From Bacteroidota bacterium (lineage in GTDB: Bacteria; Bacteroidota; Bacteroidia; Flavobacteriales_E; Vicingaceae): a stretch of 38,563 bases of DNA. A program made the translations under genes and the position numbers. The DNA lies in the NCBI GenBank assembly GCA_016183805.1, contig JACPDX010000024.1, positions 1-38,563 on the forward strand. The letters run 5' to 3'. Shown in pieces: positions 5,221 through 16,563 of the stretch. Within the stretch, counting starts at the first letter, position 1. The number at the start of each line of letters is the position of its first letter. The notes under the pieces are model-generated. The model had not been told where the DNA came from, made no database searches, and saw only the letters and a program-made list of their open reading frames with translations.

Positions 5221-7422
5221 TAAGTGGTTTAATAATTGAATATTAATTTCTTCATTAAACGGATTTGGATAAATATTAACATTATCCTTAAATTTAACCT
5301 CGTCAACACCGACTAATCCTTCGGTAATCTCAAACTTATCAAATGCACCTTCAGAAATATGTCCTCCGGGAATATCGTTAACAGTTACTATAACTCTCAT
5401 GTTATTTGTAGGTGTTAAAAAAGAAGAAATTTGGTGAGATTTATCTACCCAAGATGAATTTCCTATCGTTGAAGCGGTAACAGTTTCTATGGTTACTGTA
5501 GTTGTTCCGTTACTTAATTTTATGTTCATTTGGTCGTTTGCTGAACCTGTACCTCCGGCATTATAAAACCAACGGTAATAATTCACATAAGGATTAGAAT
5601 ACGTTGAGGCATCAAAAACAGGAGAAGTTAAAATGGTCTCGCCACCATCCACATCATCATCGCCAACATTTCCACCTGCATTTCCAGTTACAAAAGCTTC
5701 AAAATTACAATCGGTAGTTACATCAAAATCTGGGTTTGATTCCTCCGAACCAAGAAGAGTACCAATAGGCTCACCTCTTTCCCAAATACCTGCCGAAGCA
5801 GTTCCTGAAATTGTCCAATTAAAATTAAACGAAAAATCATCATAATAACCTGTATTGATTGCTATGGTATAATTTGAATTTGCGGTATTAACAACTACAT
5901 TCTCATCACAATTGGTCACATAACCCCATTTTCCGGCTGTAATGGTATAAACATCTTCTGTAAAGTTGCTAAAAGTATAAATTCCTGAAGCATTTGTAGT
6001 TACCATATTAGTATAAGAAGTGTTTTCAATTCTAACTTTAGCATTTGGGACAGGAGCTAAAGTGTTCGCATCAATTACATTTACTACAAAAGTAAAAGGT
6101 ACTAAAGGTATTAATTCAACATTTAAAATTGTTGGGTCGCAAGTAACTGCATTTAAACTCACACCTGTAATTGTTTTTGATACATAACCTGCTTTAGAAA
6201 AAGAAATATCATAAGTTCCAGTAGCTGCTATACCTATTTTGTAACCACCTATAACATTAGTGTTTGCTGTTGCTGAAGTTGAAACAATGTTTACTTGAAC
6301 TCCATTTATTGGGTTAGATGTAATTGAATCTGTTACAACACCTTCTAATTTTTGTGCTCTAATATAATTAATACCCAAAACAAATAAACCGTTTTCAATA
6401 TCTGAGGCAATAATATTTCCTGAGGGTAACCAAGGGTAAACTCCCCAGCAACCGTTAAATCCATCGCCACTATATGTCGGTGATGTATCGTAATTTCCAA
6501 CTTCAACCATGTTGGTTGGGTCGCAGACATCATGAACGGTAACACCATCGCGATAATAAGATGTTATGATATAATCATTCATAAAATGAACATTGTGAGG
6601 TATTACATTCATTCCAGGGCTTGATTGTACTCTACCCAATTCTGAAATATTTCCTAAATCGCTTACATCATAAGCACCTAAATAAGCATTAGGTTGTTCA
6701 TCAGTGGTAAAAATAGTTTGATTATCATCAGAAAACCATGCATTATGCGTAAAAAAACTTGGGGTTGTTTTAGTTGCCATAGACACAGGAGCAGATTTTG
6801 TTGCTACATTAATAACTACCAAAAAACCGTCGTTAATTGCCGCACCCCACAAGGTATCACCTCTTACAACTCCATCATGCAAATAATATTGATTATATCT
6901 ACCTACTTCAAAATTTGGATCTGTAGTAGGTAAATTTAAATTTAAAATTATTGCACCACCTACCCCACTATTTGCTCCAAAAATATAACAATATCCATTT
7001 TCGTCAATATACAAATTATGAGCAGTTGTAAAGGGATAAGTTGAGCCAGTATAATTGGTTACAGTCAAAGCTGTACTTCCTGGTAAAGGATCTAAATCAA
7101 TAATCATTAATCCATTTCCACCCTCATTTGTAATGTAGGCTTTATTGTTCCATGTTTTTAAATCTCTCCACCAAGTGGTATTTCCAGCAACCCAAAACAC
7201 TTCGTTAGGGGCTGAAGGAATAGTTACATCAACAATAGATACCCCAAATTCCATACCCACCAAAGCATATTCATTACCGAGTTCATCAACATACCCCCAA
7301 ATATCGGATCCATCTCCTTTACCAGAAAGAGGTAACTGTCCTAAAAGTGACATATTTAATTGAGCAAAAGAAAATTGTAATTGCAAACAAATTGCAATAG
7401 AGAAAAGTAATTTTTTAAACAT
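5044..7422 (-). CDS. Choice-of-anchor B family secreted protein, T9SS type A sorting domain (copy 2)
   Basis: This 792-residue paralogue of the downstream gene has the same order: signal peptide (MFKKLLFSIAICLQLQFSFA), choice-of-anchor B domain (about 22-350), two regulatory-like beta domains, a jelly-roll-like segment, and a type A sorting domain ('IYPNPFNEEINIQLL', 'KKGVYFINIYENG'). The pair looks like a tandem duplication. Identity is highest in the first half and in the last ~60 residues, and lower in the middle beta domains. A perfect 18-nt palindrome lies upstream of the start. Being secreted through T9SS follows from the sorting domain; any enzymatic or binding role is unknown. Confidence 0.88.
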   Translation of the reverse strand: MFKKLLFSIAICLQLQFSFAQLNMSLLGQLPLSGKGDGSDIWGYVDELGNEYALVGMEFGVSIVDVTIPSAPNEVFWVAGNTTWWRDLKTWNNKAYITNEGGNGLMIIDLDPLPGSTALTVTNYTGSTYPFTTAHNLYIDENGYCYIFGANSGVGGAIILNLNLPTTDPNFEVGRYNQYYLHDGVVRGDTLWGAAINDGFLVVINVATKSAPVSMATKTTPSFFTHNAWFSDDNQTIFTTDEQPNAYLGAYDVSDLGNISELGRVQSSPGMNVIPHNVHFMNDYIITSYYRDGVTVHDVCDPTNMVEVGNYDTSPTYSGDGFNGCWGVYPWLPSGNIIASDIENGLFVLGINYIRAQKLEGVVTDSITSNPINGVQVNIVSTSATANTNVIGGYKIGIAATGTYDISFSKAGYVSKTITGVSLNAVTCDPTILNVELIPLVPFTFVVNVIDANTLAPVPNAKVRIENTSYTNMVTTNASGIYTFSNFTEDVYTITAGKWGYVTNCDENVVVNTANSNYTIAINTGYYDDFSFNFNWTISGTASAGIWERGEPIGTLLGSEESNPDFDVTTDCNFEAFVTGNAGGNVGDDDVDGGETILTSPVFDASTYSNPYVNYYRWFYNAGGTGSANDQMNIKLSNGTTTVTIETVTASTIGNSSWVDKSHQISSFLTPTNNMRVIVTVNDIPGGHISEGAFDKFEITEGLVGVDEVKFKDNVNIYPNPFNEEINIQLLNHLNTSAIQIQIVDVAGRLVDKFDFTNENNIQLQNSYKKGVYFINIYENGLLIKNQKVIKY

Positions 7423-11533: not shown

Positions 11534-11541
11534 TATCTTTG
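11534..11541 (+). promoter_or_regulatory. -7 promoter box of the 11612 secreted protein gene
   Basis: TATCTTTG matches TAnnTTTG perfectly. The expected start (about 11547) coincides with the first base of the hairpin leader. The nearest TTG (11502) is too far upstream (29 nt) to be a standard -33 box. Confidence 0.6.
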
Positions 11542-11546
11542 TTTCG

Positions 11547-11597
11547 AAAATTAAGTTTGATTACCTAGAGGGAACATCCCGAAACCATCTTAATTTT
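11547..11597 (+). ncRNA. Structured 5' leader, copy 1 (candidate cis-regulatory RNA)
   Basis: The outer stem is AAAATTAAG (11547-11555) with CTTAATTTT (11589-11597). Inside is a conserved internal loop, ATTACCTAGA on the 5' side and GAAAC on the 3' side. An inner stem GGG (11570-11572) with CCC (11578-11580) closes a 5-nt loop. The core TGATTACCTA-S-AGGG-N5-CCCGAAACCAT is shared base for base with the leader of the gene at 14551. The outer stem differs completely but still pairs. The element ends 14 nt before the ATG. I cannot match it to a known RNA family. Confidence 0.65.
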
Positions 11598-11611
11598 TTC
11601 CTGATTTAACC

Positions 11612-14293
11612 ATGTTTATTGATGCAAAGACTAGTTTATTAGTTCTTGTTTTATTCATTCTCACTCCGCTTACCACAATCCAAGCACAAACTCCAAGTAC
11701 TTGTTTTGAAATTGAAAGCATTTTGGTTGATGCATGCGGAACTATTGAGGGAGAAAATGAAATGGTTCGTTTTATTGTTGGGCCTACAGCATTAAACAGT
11801 AATAACCTCTCTGTAAATTGGCCAAGTAATTCTTTTTTGGGTATCTGTCAAAATGGAACAACTGCTACTAAAGTGGCTACATTAAACAATGGAATACAAG
11901 GCTGTGGATTGTTAAAAGAACCATCTGGAGGGATTTTACCTGCTGGATCAAAAGTGATTTTAATTTCGAGTACAAGTTTCAATGTTGCTGCAAATTCTTT
12001 TAATGATTTAAATGACACCTTATATGTTATATTTCAGTGTTCAGGAAATACCCAAGGTCATTTCGCAAACTATAGCACTTCGGGTACTCTAACCAAAACA
12101 TTATCTATGTCATTTTCTTCTCCAAGTGGTTGCTCAGATAACGTAACATATAATAAAACTTTATTGATTGACCAAAGTGGAGGTTCTACAGATGAAGATG
12201 GAGCTACCGTTAACTTTTTATGGAATGGAGCTGCCACATATTCCAACATTGGTTGCACAGCTCCTATTAATATAGCTGAAGTTGACATCACTACTTCTTC
12301 TCCAACCATCTGCTCAGGAGAAATTATAAATTTAACCTCAACATCTACAGGTGGCATTACTTCATTAATTTGGAGCGGTGGAACTGGCACTTTTTCCTCA
12401 CCAAATTCAAATATAACGAGCTACACATCTTCACCGACTGATGTATCTAATTTTTATATTTATTTACAAGGATCTACCACTTGTGGCGAAATCATAAAAG
12501 ACAGTTTGTTAATTCAAATAAGTGGAAACAATTCATCGGTTGATATTACTACCTCAACTACCGAATTGTGCAATGGAGACAGTATTCTATTAACGGCAAC
12601 CGGATCAGGAAATTATACATGGAGTACCGGCAGTAATTCTGCTTCAATTTATGCTTTAAACTCTGGCTCTTATACTGTAACAAGTAACTCTTCATGTGGA
12701 AGTTCTGCTGACACCATTATAATTACTAATGCCCCTACAATTAACCTAAATCTAATTGCTTCTTCAACAGAAATTTGCAACGGAAATACTGCCACTTTAA
12801 CCGCAAGTGGAGCACCAAATTATACTTGGTTTAATGGCACCACAGGAACTACACAAACAGTAAATTCGACTGGAAATTATTACGTAATTGGCTACAACAA
12901 TTGTTATAATGATTCTCAATCTGTTTCTATTTCGGTTATTACCCCACCATCTATAACAATTTCTAGCTCATCATTATCAAATACACTTTGCAGTGGTGAA
13001 ACAATAATTCTTATGGCTAGTGGAGGAGATAATTATTTATGGAATACCACTGATACATCGACTTCATTACTTGTTACAAATGCTGGAACTTATACTGTTA
13101 CAAGTACTTCGATTTGTGGAAATTCTACCGATAATATTACAATAACTGATTCTCCAACCATAAATTTAAATTTAACCGCTTCTGACACACTAATTTGCAA
13201 TGGAAATACAGCTATATTAACAGCTAGTGGTGCTCCAAACTATTTTTGGTTTAATGGAACTACTGGTACTTCACAAAACGTAACTACAACTGGAGATTAT
13301 TATGTAATTGGGTACAACGATTGTTATCGTGATTCTCAATCGGTTTCTATTTCGGTTATAACACCACCATCCATAGCGATTTCTAGCTCATTATCATCTA
13401 ATACACTTTGCAGTGGTGAAACGATTATTCTTACAGCTAGTGGTGGAAATAATTATTTATGGGATACCTCTGACACCACAAGCTCTATTGCAATTACAAT
13501 CGCAGGAGTTTATACCGTTTCTTCCAGCAATTTTTGTGGAACCATTAGTGAATCTATTTCAATTACTACAGGTGTATTCCCAATTGCTTTAATAACTGGC
13601 GATTCTGTAATATGTAACAACAACGGAATTGTTTTAACAGCTGCTGGTGGTGATACCTATTTATGGTCGAATGGAAATCAATCAAATACAACAAATATTA
13701 ATGCAGCACAACAAATTGAAGTCGTTGCTTTTAATAGTTGCGGAAGCGATACTGCTTACAAAACTATTTATGATTATAGTTTAACAGCAGCTTTTACTTC
13801 AAACTACACACCCGATAGTAATACGCCTATTGAAATTGGTTTCATCAACTCATCTACAAATAGTTTAACTTATCATTGGAATTTTGGTGACGGGAGTACT
13901 GATACATTAGAAGACCCATTACATACTTATACCGATAATGGAGAATATACTATAGTACTAACCTCAAGCAATGGATTCTGTGCTGATACTTTTGAAACTA
14001 CTTTTATATTTAGCAATCCGAATGCTGTTTATATACCCAATGTATTTACTCCAAATAATGACGAAATAAATGATGTTTTTTCAATTGTTGGAGAAAATAT
14101 TTCTAAAATAGAATGTCAAATTTTTAATAGATGGGGTGAAAAGTTATATACTTGGAATACTTTAGATGGTTTTTGGGATGGAAAATTTAAAAATAATACG
14201 GTGTCTGACGGAACCTATTTTTACATTGCTCGTATAGTTTGGAGCAATAATTTATCCGAAATTTTTAACGGGCATTTAACTGTTTTAAAATAA
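11612..14293 (+). CDS. Large secreted repeat protein with 'ILVDACG' domain, T9SS type B sorting domain
   Basis: This protein has 893 residues. Residues 1-25 are a signal peptide (ending TIQAQ). Residues about 30-222 form a domain ('ESILVDACGTIEGENEMVRF') also found in the gene at 14551. An Ig-like region (about 229-310) follows, then paired ~70-residue beta units, two of which are duplicated as a 140-residue block (about 370-650). A PKD domain (about 730-805, 'YHWNFGDGSTDT') leads to the C-terminal type B sorting domain ('FTPNNDEINDVFSI', 'IFNRWGEKLYTW', 'SDGTYFYIARI'). It is predicted to be exported by Sec and T9SS. It may be a surface adhesin; no enzymatic motif is seen. Its leader and the shared domain link it to the next gene. 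Confidence 0.88.
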   Translation: MFIDAKTSLLVLVLFILTPLTTIQAQTPSTCFEIESILVDACGTIEGENEMVRFIVGPTALNSNNLSVNWPSNSFLGICQNGTTATKVATLNNGIQGCGLLKEPSGGILPAGSKVILISSTSFNVAANSFNDLNDTLYVIFQCSGNTQGHFANYSTSGTLTKTLSMSFSSPSGCSDNVTYNKTLLIDQSGGSTDEDGATVNFLWNGAATYSNIGCTAPINIAEVDITTSSPTICSGEIINLTSTSTGGITSLIWSGGTGTFSSPNSNITSYTSSPTDVSNFYIYLQGSTTCGEIIKDSLLIQISGNNSSVDITTSTTELCNGDSILLTATGSGNYTWSTGSNSASIYALNSGSYTVTSNSSCGSSADTIIITNAPTINLNLIASSTEICNGNTATLTASGAPNYTWFNGTTGTTQTVNSTGNYYVIGYNNCYNDSQSVSISVITPPSITISSSSLSNTLCSGETIILMASGGDNYLWNTTDTSTSLLVTNAGTYTVTSTSICGNSTDNITITDSPTINLNLTASDTLICNGNTAILTASGAPNYFWFNGTTGTSQNVTTTGDYYVIGYNDCYRDSQSVSISVITPPSIAISSSLSSNTLCSGETIILTASGGNNYLWDTSDTTSSIAITIAGVYTVSSSNFCGTISESISITTGVFPIALITGDSVICNNNGIVLTAAGGDTYLWSNGNQSNTTNINAAQQIEVVAFNSCGSDTAYKTIYDYSLTAAFTSNYTPDSNTPIEIGFINSSTNSLTYHWNFGDGSTDTLEDPLHTYTDNGEYTIVLTSSNGFCADTFETTFIFSNPNAVYIPNVFTPNNDEINDVFSIVGENISKIECQIFNRWGEKLYTWNTLDGFWDGKFKNNTVSDGTYFYIARIVWSNNLSEIFNGHLTVLK
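12721..13560 (+). repeat. Two-unit higher-order repeat, 420-bp period
   Basis: Two consecutive 420-bp copies (12721-13140 and 13141-13560) are in register without indels. Each encodes two ~70-residue beta units, and both contain 'YYVIGYN', 'DSQSVSISVITPPSI' and 'LCSGETIIL.ASGG'. The two units within a copy are far less alike. Confidence 0.85.
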
Positions 14294-14299
14294 TATCAC

Positions 14300-14392
14300 A
14301 TGAGTATTAGGACTGTACAAGATTTTCAAAAACTGATGTTAATCATTTTTAGTATTATAGCTCCATTATTTTTAGTGTTTATTACGTATTAA
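14300..14392 (+). CDS. Possible 30-residue membrane peptide
   Basis: An ATG 7 nt after the preceding stop opens a 30-codon frame. It has a polar N-terminus (MSIRTVQDFQK) and one hydrophobic stretch (about residues 12-30) that could span the membrane. No family is recognised. The length is short enough for chance, but position and composition are what a small membrane protein would show. Confidence 0.25.
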   Translation: MSIRTVQDFQKLMLIIFSIIAPLFLVFITY

Positions 14393-14453
14393 ATAACTCC
14401 TTTTCAACAATTTGTTGAAAAAATTAACCCTCATTTAATTTACCCTTAACACA

Positions 14454-14472
14454 TACGAATTTTAAATTCGTA
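14454..14472. promoter_or_regulatory. 19-nt palindrome next to the -7 box of the 14551 gene
   Basis: TACGAATTTTAAATTCGTA is a perfect inverted repeat around a central T. Its right end overlaps the putative -7 box (14471-14478), so a protein bound here would compete with RNA polymerase or act from the core promoter. It is absent from the otherwise parallel promoter at 11534. Confidence 0.5.
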
Positions 14473-14478
14473 CCTTTA
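14471..14478 (+). promoter_or_regulatory. Putative -7 box of the 14551 secreted protein gene
   Basis: TACCTTTA fits TAnnTTTG except for the last base. It holds nearly the same place relative to leader and ATG (80 nt from box start to ATG) as the stronger box at 11534 (78 nt). The transcript would begin at about 14484, at the leader. Confidence 0.45.
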
Positions 14479-14486
14479 CTTGTGTA

Positions 14487-14536
14487 AATTATAAAATGAT
14501 TACCTACAGGGCTTTTCCCGAAACCATTTTATAATT
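14487..14536 (+). ncRNA. Structured 5' leader, copy 2 (candidate cis-regulatory RNA)
   Basis: The outer stem is a perfect 12 bp: AATTATAAAATG (14487-14498) with CATTTTATAATT (14525-14536). The internal loop has ATTACCTACA and GAAAC, and the inner stem is GGG (14509-14511) with CCC (14517-14519) around CTTTT. The core matches that at 11547-11597, and the element again ends 14 nt before the ATG. Two dissimilar outer stems around the same core are evidence for pairing in RNA. Confidence 0.68.
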
Positions 14537-14550
14537 ATTTCAATTTCAAC

Positions 14551-16563
14551 ATGTTTTCTCGGGTAGTACTTTCTTGTATTATTCTTTTAACTTCAATAGG
14601 TTTGTCTGGGCAGGCTGTATTTATTAATGAAATTCATTATGATAATACTGGAGGGGATGTTGATGAAGGAGTAGAAATAGCTGGACCAGCAGGTACAGAT
14701 TTATCATGTTATACGATTTACTTATATAATGGATCTGGTGGAGCAAATTACACTCCAACTACCATCTTATCAGGTACTATTGATGATGAAGGTTGTGGGT
14801 ATGGAGCTGTGTGGTTCTCGATAAGTGGGATACAAAATGGTAATCCTGATGGTATTGTTCTATATAATACATGTACTTCAAGTGTAATTCAATTTATCAG
14901 TTACGGAGGTACTTTCACTGCAACAAATAATGTTGCAAACGGATTAGGTTCAACTGATATTGGAGTTACGGAAGCCGGTGGATCAGCCATTGGTAATTCA
15001 CTACAACTAGGAGGTACTGGTACAATTTATACAGATTTCACATGGGCAGGATCAGCAGCGAATTCAATGGGTAATATAAATCCAACTCAAGACTTTTGTA
15101 CAGTTTGCTCCCCAGATGCAGAACCAACCACAAATTCTTCATCATTATCATTTCCAGACACCACTTGCTCAAGCATTGATTTAAGTTGGACATCAGGTAA
15201 CGGAAGTAATAGAATTGTTGTGGTTTCAACTTCACCAATTGTTGGTATACCTACAGATCAAACTAACTATACTGCTAATGCAATTTTTGGTTCGGGAAGC
15301 ACAATTGCAGTTAACGAATTTGTGGTTTACAATGGAAACGGAAATACTGTTACTGTTTCAGGACTTACAGCTTCTACTACTTATTATTTTGCCATTTTTG
15401 AATACAATGGAACTACGTTAAATTGTACCGAAAATTATTACACCACATCTGTTTTAACAGGAAATTTTTCAACCCCTGCTTGTCCTGTTTCATCTTGTGC
15501 CGAAATAACAGGAATTTTGGTTGATGCATGTGGTGGAACATCTGAAGGTATTAACGAATTTTTTACTTTTACCAATGGCAATACAAATTTAGCTATAGAT
15601 AGTCTTACCGCTACTTTCCCTTCAGGTGGTTCGTTCTGTAATTCAGGTTGTGCAGCTCAAACTTGGACAACTAACGCAGTTTTTACTGATTCATTAAATA
15701 CATGGGCGGGTTGTGCAGGTTTATTTGTGGAAACAGACCCTATTCCGGCCGACGCAAATGTTATTGTTTTTACTGGTGCTTCACCGACTTTTAATTTTGA
15801 TTTTAGTGGTTTGTGTGGAACTGGTCCTTATTATGCTGTTTTTGCTAATAATGCAAGTACCGGAGGTAGGTTTGCAAATTATGCTGCCTGTGCAACAAGA
15901 ACATTAACTGTTTCTTTTGGGGCTAACTGTTCTGATACTGCAATATACGACAGGTGCTTAGTACCTAATTCAGATGGTGCTTATGTTGCTTTTGATGCTC
16001 CAGGCAATGCAACTTATGCCAATGATGGATGTACTCCAATTGCAACACTTCCAATCGAATTACTTTCTTTTACTGGTAAATTAATTGGTTCTTCTAATCT
16101 ATTAGAATGGGCAACAACAACTGAAATAAACAACGATTATTTTACCCTAGAGCGTTCAGCTAATGCAACTCTTTTTAGCGAAATAGGAACAATTCAAGGA
16201 GCCGGAAATAGCAATACAATACTCTATTATAATTTTATTGATGAAACTCTACTAAAAGGAGTTAATTATTATAGATTAAAACAAACTGATTTTGACGGCT
16301 CTTACAGTTATTCTAATATTATTGCACTATCAAACAACTCCACCAAGTTTAACATTTGGAATTCATCCAACATATTGTTTGTTAAAGGCGAAAAGGGAAA
16401 TTTACCAAGTTCATTAAAAATATACAACCTGCTAGGAGAATTGGTTTTCGAAAAGGTTTTTGAAGAAAACACTTCGGTGGAAACTTCAAATTTTAGTTCT
16501 GGAATTTATTTGGTAAAAGTTCAAACTGCCGAATCAACTTATACTCAAAAAGTAAAATTCTAA
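14551..16563 (+). CDS. Secreted lamin-tail-like protein with 'ILVDACG' domain, T9SS type A sorting domain
   Basis: This protein has 670 residues. Residues 1-20 are a signal peptide (ending GLSGQ). Residues about 22-185 resemble a lamin-tail domain ('VFINEIHYDNTGGDVDEGVE'), which in this phylum often precedes extracellular nuclease domains, but no nuclease follows. A fibronectin-III-like segment ('SSIDLSWTSGNGSNR', about 195-305) is next. Then comes the ~180-residue domain (about 316-497) shared with the 11612 protein ('ITGILVDACGGTSEGINEF'). The C-terminus has the usual 'LPIELLSFTGKL...LLEWATTTE' region and a type A sorting domain ending in 'YTQKVKF'. It is secreted, with unknown ligand. Its TAA overlaps the stop codon of convergent bshC. 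Confidence 0.88.
   Translation: MFSRVVLSCIILLTSIGLSGQAVFINEIHYDNTGGDVDEGVEIAGPAGTDLSCYTIYLYNGSGGANYTPTTILSGTIDDEGCGYGAVWFSISGIQNGNPDGIVLYNTCTSSVIQFISYGGTFTATNNVANGLGSTDIGVTEAGGSAIGNSLQLGGTGTIYTDFTWAGSAANSMGNINPTQDFCTVCSPDAEPTTNSSSLSFPDTTCSSIDLSWTSGNGSNRIVVVSTSPIVGIPTDQTNYTANAIFGSGSTIAVNEFVVYNGNGNTVTVSGLTASTTYYFAIFEYNGTTLNCTENYYTTSVLTGNFSTPACPVSSCAEITGILVDACGGTSEGINEFFTFTNGNTNLAIDSLTATFPSGGSFCNSGCAAQTWTTNAVFTDSLNTWAGCAGLFVETDPIPADANVIVFTGASPTFNFDFSGLCGTGPYYAVFANNASTGGRFANYAACATRTLTVSFGANCSDTAIYDRCLVPNSDGAYVAFDAPGNATYANDGCTPIATLPIELLSFTGKLIGSSNLLEWATTTEINNDYFTLERSANATLFSEIGTIQGAGNSNTILYYNFIDETLLKGVNYYRLKQTDFDGSYSYSNIIALSNNSTKFNIWNSSNILFVKGEKGNLPSSLKIYNLLGELVFEKVFEENTSVETSNFSSGIYLVKVQTAESTYTQKVKF

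Follow-up and report, generated by a model that had tools for sequence, protein, structure and literature searches.

Two short elements in a 38,563-nucleotide (nt) stretch of DNA (the window; Bacteroidota bacterium GCA_016183805.1, contig JACPDX010000024.1, forward strand) are a subtype of a wider, previously uncatalogued structured leader RNA that precedes secreted-protein genes in several Bacteroidota families. An earlier sequence-only reading of the window had proposed a cis-regulatory leader RNA for surface-protein genes. Our searches supported the leader RNA, with further matches before exported-protein genes and with covarying stems, and its reach exceeds the genes first proposed: it precedes cargo genes of the type IX secretion system (T9SS) in at least five families. 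We are nearly certain that the element is a structured leader element. To a fuller reading, in which it is the cis-acting leader RNA of a T9SS cargo regulon and its internal loop is recognised by a common trans-acting factor, most probably an RNA-binding protein, we assign a probability of about 0.5.

We first describe the two window elements, which we call subtype A. The core TGATTACCTASAGGG-N5-CCCGAAACCAT was exact, with identical internal spacing, at 11558-11588 and 14497-14527. In 100 dinucleotide shuffles we observed no core match, even at 3 mismatches (two copies observed, zero expected), and no third copy within 3 mismatches was found in the organism's own genome. Copy 1 spans 11545..11599 (+), with its outer stem at 11546-11555/11589-11598; copy 2 spans 14484..14538 (+), with its outer stem at 14487-14498/14525-14536 and its inner stem at 14509-14511/14517-14519 (+). 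RNAfold paired both outer stems, which differ in sequence, as 10 base pairs (bp) in copy 1 and 12 bp in copy 2, each with an inner GGG/CCC stem. Copy 2 was clearly more stable than shuffled sequence (z -2.1), whereas copy 1 was not (z -0.5); the case for RNA structure therefore rests on covariation, not on stability. Upstream of each copy lies a -7 promoter box on the + strand: the Bacteroidota-type TATCTTTG at 11534..11541 and TACCTTTA at 14471..14478, both read from the sequence and matched by similar boxes before most subtype-A relatives. The predicted transcript start for the TATCTTTG promoter would fall approximately where the copy 1 hairpin begins. Spacing to the start codon was likewise as the sequence-only reading gave it, with 23 nt from CCAT to ATG in both leaders and 78 and 80 nt from the -7 boxes (11534 and 14471, respectively) to ATG; the gap from core to ATG in subtype A is ∼24 nt.

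An iterative covariance-model search with Rfam comparison had been set beforehand as the test of the proposal, and it returned relatives with covarying stems and no Rfam match. The subtype-A model, built from the first six same-genus copies and then from 17 copies, extended the set to three genera within the same family (g1, g6, and g9), where the matches lie in the leaders of T9SS orthologues, most of which carry an N-terminal CFEIESILVDACG domain. Over an 84,980-species collection, stem-paired leader copies of the exact subtype core occurred only in Flavobacteriales/Vicingaceae-type metagenome-assembled genomes (family assignment inferred). Outside the family, exact-core matches fell in coding frames, among them an IS256-like transposase (eight matches in Bacteroides ihuae) and a histidine kinase, and lacked a properly paired outer stem; copies in coding positions, which could have told against a leader RNA, are accounted for as chance coding matches. 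A weak model match in a coding frame (L023) was also set aside.

The wider loop emerged from weak model matches and from leaders of orthologous genes that the subtype-A model had missed. Over the family, the pattern GTGANYAYCCTNNA-N(6-36)-AACCRC gave 22 matches versus 5 for a reversed-pattern control, and a slightly stricter pattern gave ∼40 versus 5 over 395 genomes of the class. Class-wide matches were concentrated in one genus (g36, family f21); families f29, f37, and f41 supplied others. Nearly all wider-pattern matches had a paired outer stem and a downstream signal-peptide gene, barring seven judged coding or chance (L104, L112, L113, and L141-L144). Three matches on viral contigs had no outer stem and were rejected.

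Membership of the window copies in this wider family rests chiefly on a covariance model (R3) built from 41 wider-family elements with the window subtype left out. R3 nonetheless recovered both window copies, copy 2 at 37.4 bits (E 4.4e-7) and copy 1 at 19.3 bits (E 0.04). When applied to 38 genomes, with the top candidates per genome scored so that copy counts are lower bounds, R3 found at least one to seven copies each in 28 genomes of five families, all in one class, and did not find the element in ten genomes of ten other genera. The window's own genome holds at least five copies, two on contig C39 and the others on C30, C56, and C9.

Comparison of the copies defined the anatomy of the element. 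An outer stem closed by GUG/CRC leads into an asymmetric internal loop, above which stands an inner hairpin whose sequence and length are almost free. The 5′ strand of the loop reads A, any, Y, A, C/U, (C), C, U, A, any, A and the 3′ strand reads any, A, A, A, C; subtype A lacks one C of the CCC. In the 5′ strand all but two positions, which are free, are nearly invariant, a conservation partly imposed by the search pattern; columns 16, 19, 22, 23, 76, and 78 of the 65-copy alignment A6 are invariant. The sequence-only reading had described a conserved inner GGG/CCC stem with a 5-nt loop of variable sequence. Stem and loop length are features of the window subtype only, and the inner hairpin varies freely across the wider family: a class-wide pattern with the inner GG/CC fixed gave no matches, and from this together with the later matches we conclude that the inner stem varies. 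One example, L086, has a different inner stem (GTGAACACCCTGG-AAGTC-TAAAC-GACTT-CAACCAC), and a further subtype (L184-L186) has a GAAG/CTTC-type inner stem before TonB-receptor-like genes. We also observed that L184, L185, L186, and L192 place the element before related outer-membrane proteins of ∼843 amino acids (aa) with a TonB-receptor plug (tested for L184).

To assess structure across the family, we measured covariation. In subtype A, 92.3% of cells were paired and the covariation score was 0.454, versus 0.200 for shuffled and at most 0.141 for slid alignments; over the whole family (A6) it was 0.449, versus 0.215 and at most 0.161. Among 41 elements chosen by pattern and not by structure, outer flanks paired better with their own than with swapped partners (0 of 2000 permutations were as good), and the inner hairpins had a mean folding z of -3.9 against shuffled sequence. 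Covarying helices thus occur together with conserved unpaired positions, as in a cis-regulatory structured RNA. These results bear on a DNA-level signal, such as an operator or an invertible or recombination site, to which the inverted-repeat flanks near a promoter would be suited. We consider it very improbable, since both helices change sequence while pairing is preserved, the spacing of the conserved halves (an inner segment of 10-34 nt) varies by more than 20 nt, and orientation to the gene is constant.

They also bear on the idea that the elements are functionless remnants of duplicated promoter regions of paralogous genes. The two window genes do share a domain (ILVDACG, 42% match; described below), and orthologous loci recur across genomes; however, elements precede unrelated exported proteins in five families, and flanks and stems have fully diverged where the loop has not, with the stems covarying. 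Of all the alternatives, we give this one the least credence. We also rejected a mobile or repeat element, as copies share the loop alone and differ in their flanks and both stems.

We then examined the position of the element and the genes behind it. Of 65 elements, 62 precede a same-strand ATG open reading frame of at least 60 aa within ∼250 nt, at a median distance of 28 nt and at 40 nt or less in 42 of the 62. A TAnnTTTG-like promoter precedes most copies, and the box lies 12-16 nt before most subtype-A relatives. Most downstream proteins end in a T9SS sorting tail: among 47 C-termini scanned, Pfam identified Por_Secre_tail in 21 and CHU_C in 19, and NCBIfam identified T9SS sorting tails of type A in 22, type B in 15, and type C in 9, with overlap. 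Such tails are generally found in a few percent of genes. Downstream genes without a T9SS tail encode small secreted proteins, TonB-receptor-like proteins, and one SpoIIE phosphatase. Orientation is constant and the element sits in 5′ leaders of functionally related genes, again as in a cis-regulatory structured RNA.

A hairpin at the 5′ end could also act passively, by protecting the mRNA from decay or by offering a ribosome standby site without any trans factor, and in subtype A it does begin at or beside the predicted transcription start. We think this unlikely, because a passive hairpin would not need an invariant internal loop, yet six A6 columns are invariant over 65 copies, and because in other genera the element is often tens of nt inside the predicted transcript.

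We reasoned that recognition by one trans factor is the likeliest explanation because unlinked exported-protein genes share the loop near their start codons. The asymmetric loop would be the fixed recognition part and both helices a scaffold of almost any sequence; one trans-acting factor would bind the loop near the ribosome-binding region, and, with the element mostly 15-40 nt upstream of the start codon, the bound factor might jointly set translation or decay of the cargo mRNAs. Binding by a factor, its protein nature, and the direction and level of control are the parts of this mechanism that we infer. Tandem copies in one leader, some degenerate (L189:301-445, L187:6026-6169, L188 ∼6001-6132, and the degenerate L207 ∼5930-6069), fit a putative repeated binding site. 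A CsrA-type recognition of ANGGA was rejected, since ANGGA is frequent in subtype A but missing from the other subtypes.

The main rival to a protein factor is a small-molecule riboswitch, in which the loop would serve as an aptamer and its metabolite or second messenger, once bound, would alter ribosome access to exported-protein genes; we hold it possible but rather doubtful. A highly conserved loop in a small hairpin would suit an aptamer, as would two fully variable loop positions among near-invariant ones, as in a folded pocket. Tandem copies are known from glycine riboswitches, and cyclic di-GMP (c-di-GMP) riboswitches control adhesins elsewhere. Nevertheless, most known aptamers exceed one small internal loop. 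We prefer a protein over a ligand because one small loop stands on interchangeable stems, no expression platform is visible (subtype A leaves only ∼24 nt between core and ATG), and what unites the genes is the export route of their products and not a pathway from which a ligand could be guessed.

Several points weigh against the trans-factor reading of a T9SS cargo regulon. Promoters and transcription starts were assigned by consensus. Matches within one genus are related, so that they inflate the counts and are not independent events. The pattern-based test of 41 elements is cleaner than the A6 covariation, since A6 was fitted to the model; the search patterns also imposed some conserved A6 columns. 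Furthermore, an element in the window's own genome (L183:2229-2290:-, contig C9) precedes a cytoplasmic SpoIIE-type phosphatase and not an exported protein. This phosphatase, the sole cytoplasmic regulator in the set, could itself be part of a regulatory circuit.

The surface proteins that Bacteroidota export through the T9SS include gliding adhesins and hydrolases, and the shared leader RNA suggests that a single RNA signal governs an entire set of secreted proteins in these bacteria. Overall, we lean towards a Bacteroidota-specific regulon in which one internal-loop RNA would co-ordinate the expression or membrane targeting of T9SS cargo and related outer-membrane-protein mRNAs across several families, through either a new riboswitch ligand or a dedicated RNA-binding protein. 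A covarying, oriented leader RNA at unlinked cargo genes offers a direct handle on such a post-transcriptional regulon, and the ligand or binding protein of the orphan loop is open to standard assays.

Behind the window elements lie two genes on the + strand. Gene 1 (11612..14293) encodes an 893-aa secreted protein with an N-terminal CFEIESILVDACG domain, a PKD domain, and a CHU_C T9SS sorting tail, and gene 2 (14551..16563) encodes a 670-aa secreted protein with a Por_Secre_tail T9SS sorting tail. Both share an uncharacterised ILVDACG...EGxNE domain (window 11612-12271 and 15472-16038), which lies at the N-terminus of gene 1 and inside gene 2, where the sequence from 15472 matches gene 1 at 42%. 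The locus is syntenic within the genus: L003 and L006 keep both genes in order, and guaA lies upstream in L005. In L095 and L101 (genome G007), two gene-1 homologues lie on one contig without the element, and their ATG follows the promoter almost directly.

Other leaders of the family showed further features. In L105, L121, and L125, the element is followed, ahead of the ATG of small secreted-protein genes, by a second conserved hairpin-like segment (diverged in L123), for example GGCAACTATTTGTTAAAATAGTGCGTCT, with a variable stem and conserved GRCAAC / TGCGTC ends; this segment is possibly another uncatalogued leader element. In L219 (G406), the element precedes a lipoprotein-like gene; its scanned set gave a match to the thiol-activated cytolysin family that was not assigned individually.

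Finally, we compared the element with known systems. The sequence-only reading had recognised no named riboswitch or ribozyme, and at gathering cut-offs Rfam 15 (Flavo-1 included) likewise gave no match over the window and 16 related loci; permissive scans gave matches far below cut-off, none credible. A GAAA resemblance to the hammerhead ribozyme was dismissed, as the other catalytic parts are absent. We know of no published RNA element common to T9SS cargo genes, and our literature search, which did not cover the 2017 set of 224 candidate RNAs, found no RNA motif linked to T9SS cargo. A previous description may exist outside Rfam: among the candidate RNAs listed in 2010 are Bacteroidota motifs that carry no Rfam number, for instance GUCCY-hairpin and Bacteroides-2 (PMC2864571).

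Flavo-1 RNA (RF01705) is, like the element, a structured motif found computationally in Bacteroidota. Its F. psychrophilum matches run both sense and antisense, and many fall outside transcribed regions (PMC9723704), whereas the T9SS-leader element is oriented, lies in leaders, and has no Rfam match to RF01705 at either the gathering or a permissive cut-off. C-di-GMP and other second-messenger riboswitches are similarly leader RNAs before surface-protein genes with tandem forms; however, the element has no Rfam similarity to them and is much smaller in architecture. Protein-bound mRNA hairpins with a conserved loop or bulge on variable stems, such as iron-responsive-element-type elements and aminoacyl-tRNA synthetase operators, may be a further parallel: they too present a single conserved loop on scaffold stems ahead of unlinked genes. 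Their loop differs, and a binding protein for the element would be a putative one. Post-transcriptional regulators of the RNA-recognition-motif (RRM) type, such as RbpB, are known in Bacteroidota (PMC11697453), and RRM-type RNA-binding proteins of this kind may be candidate trans factors for the element.
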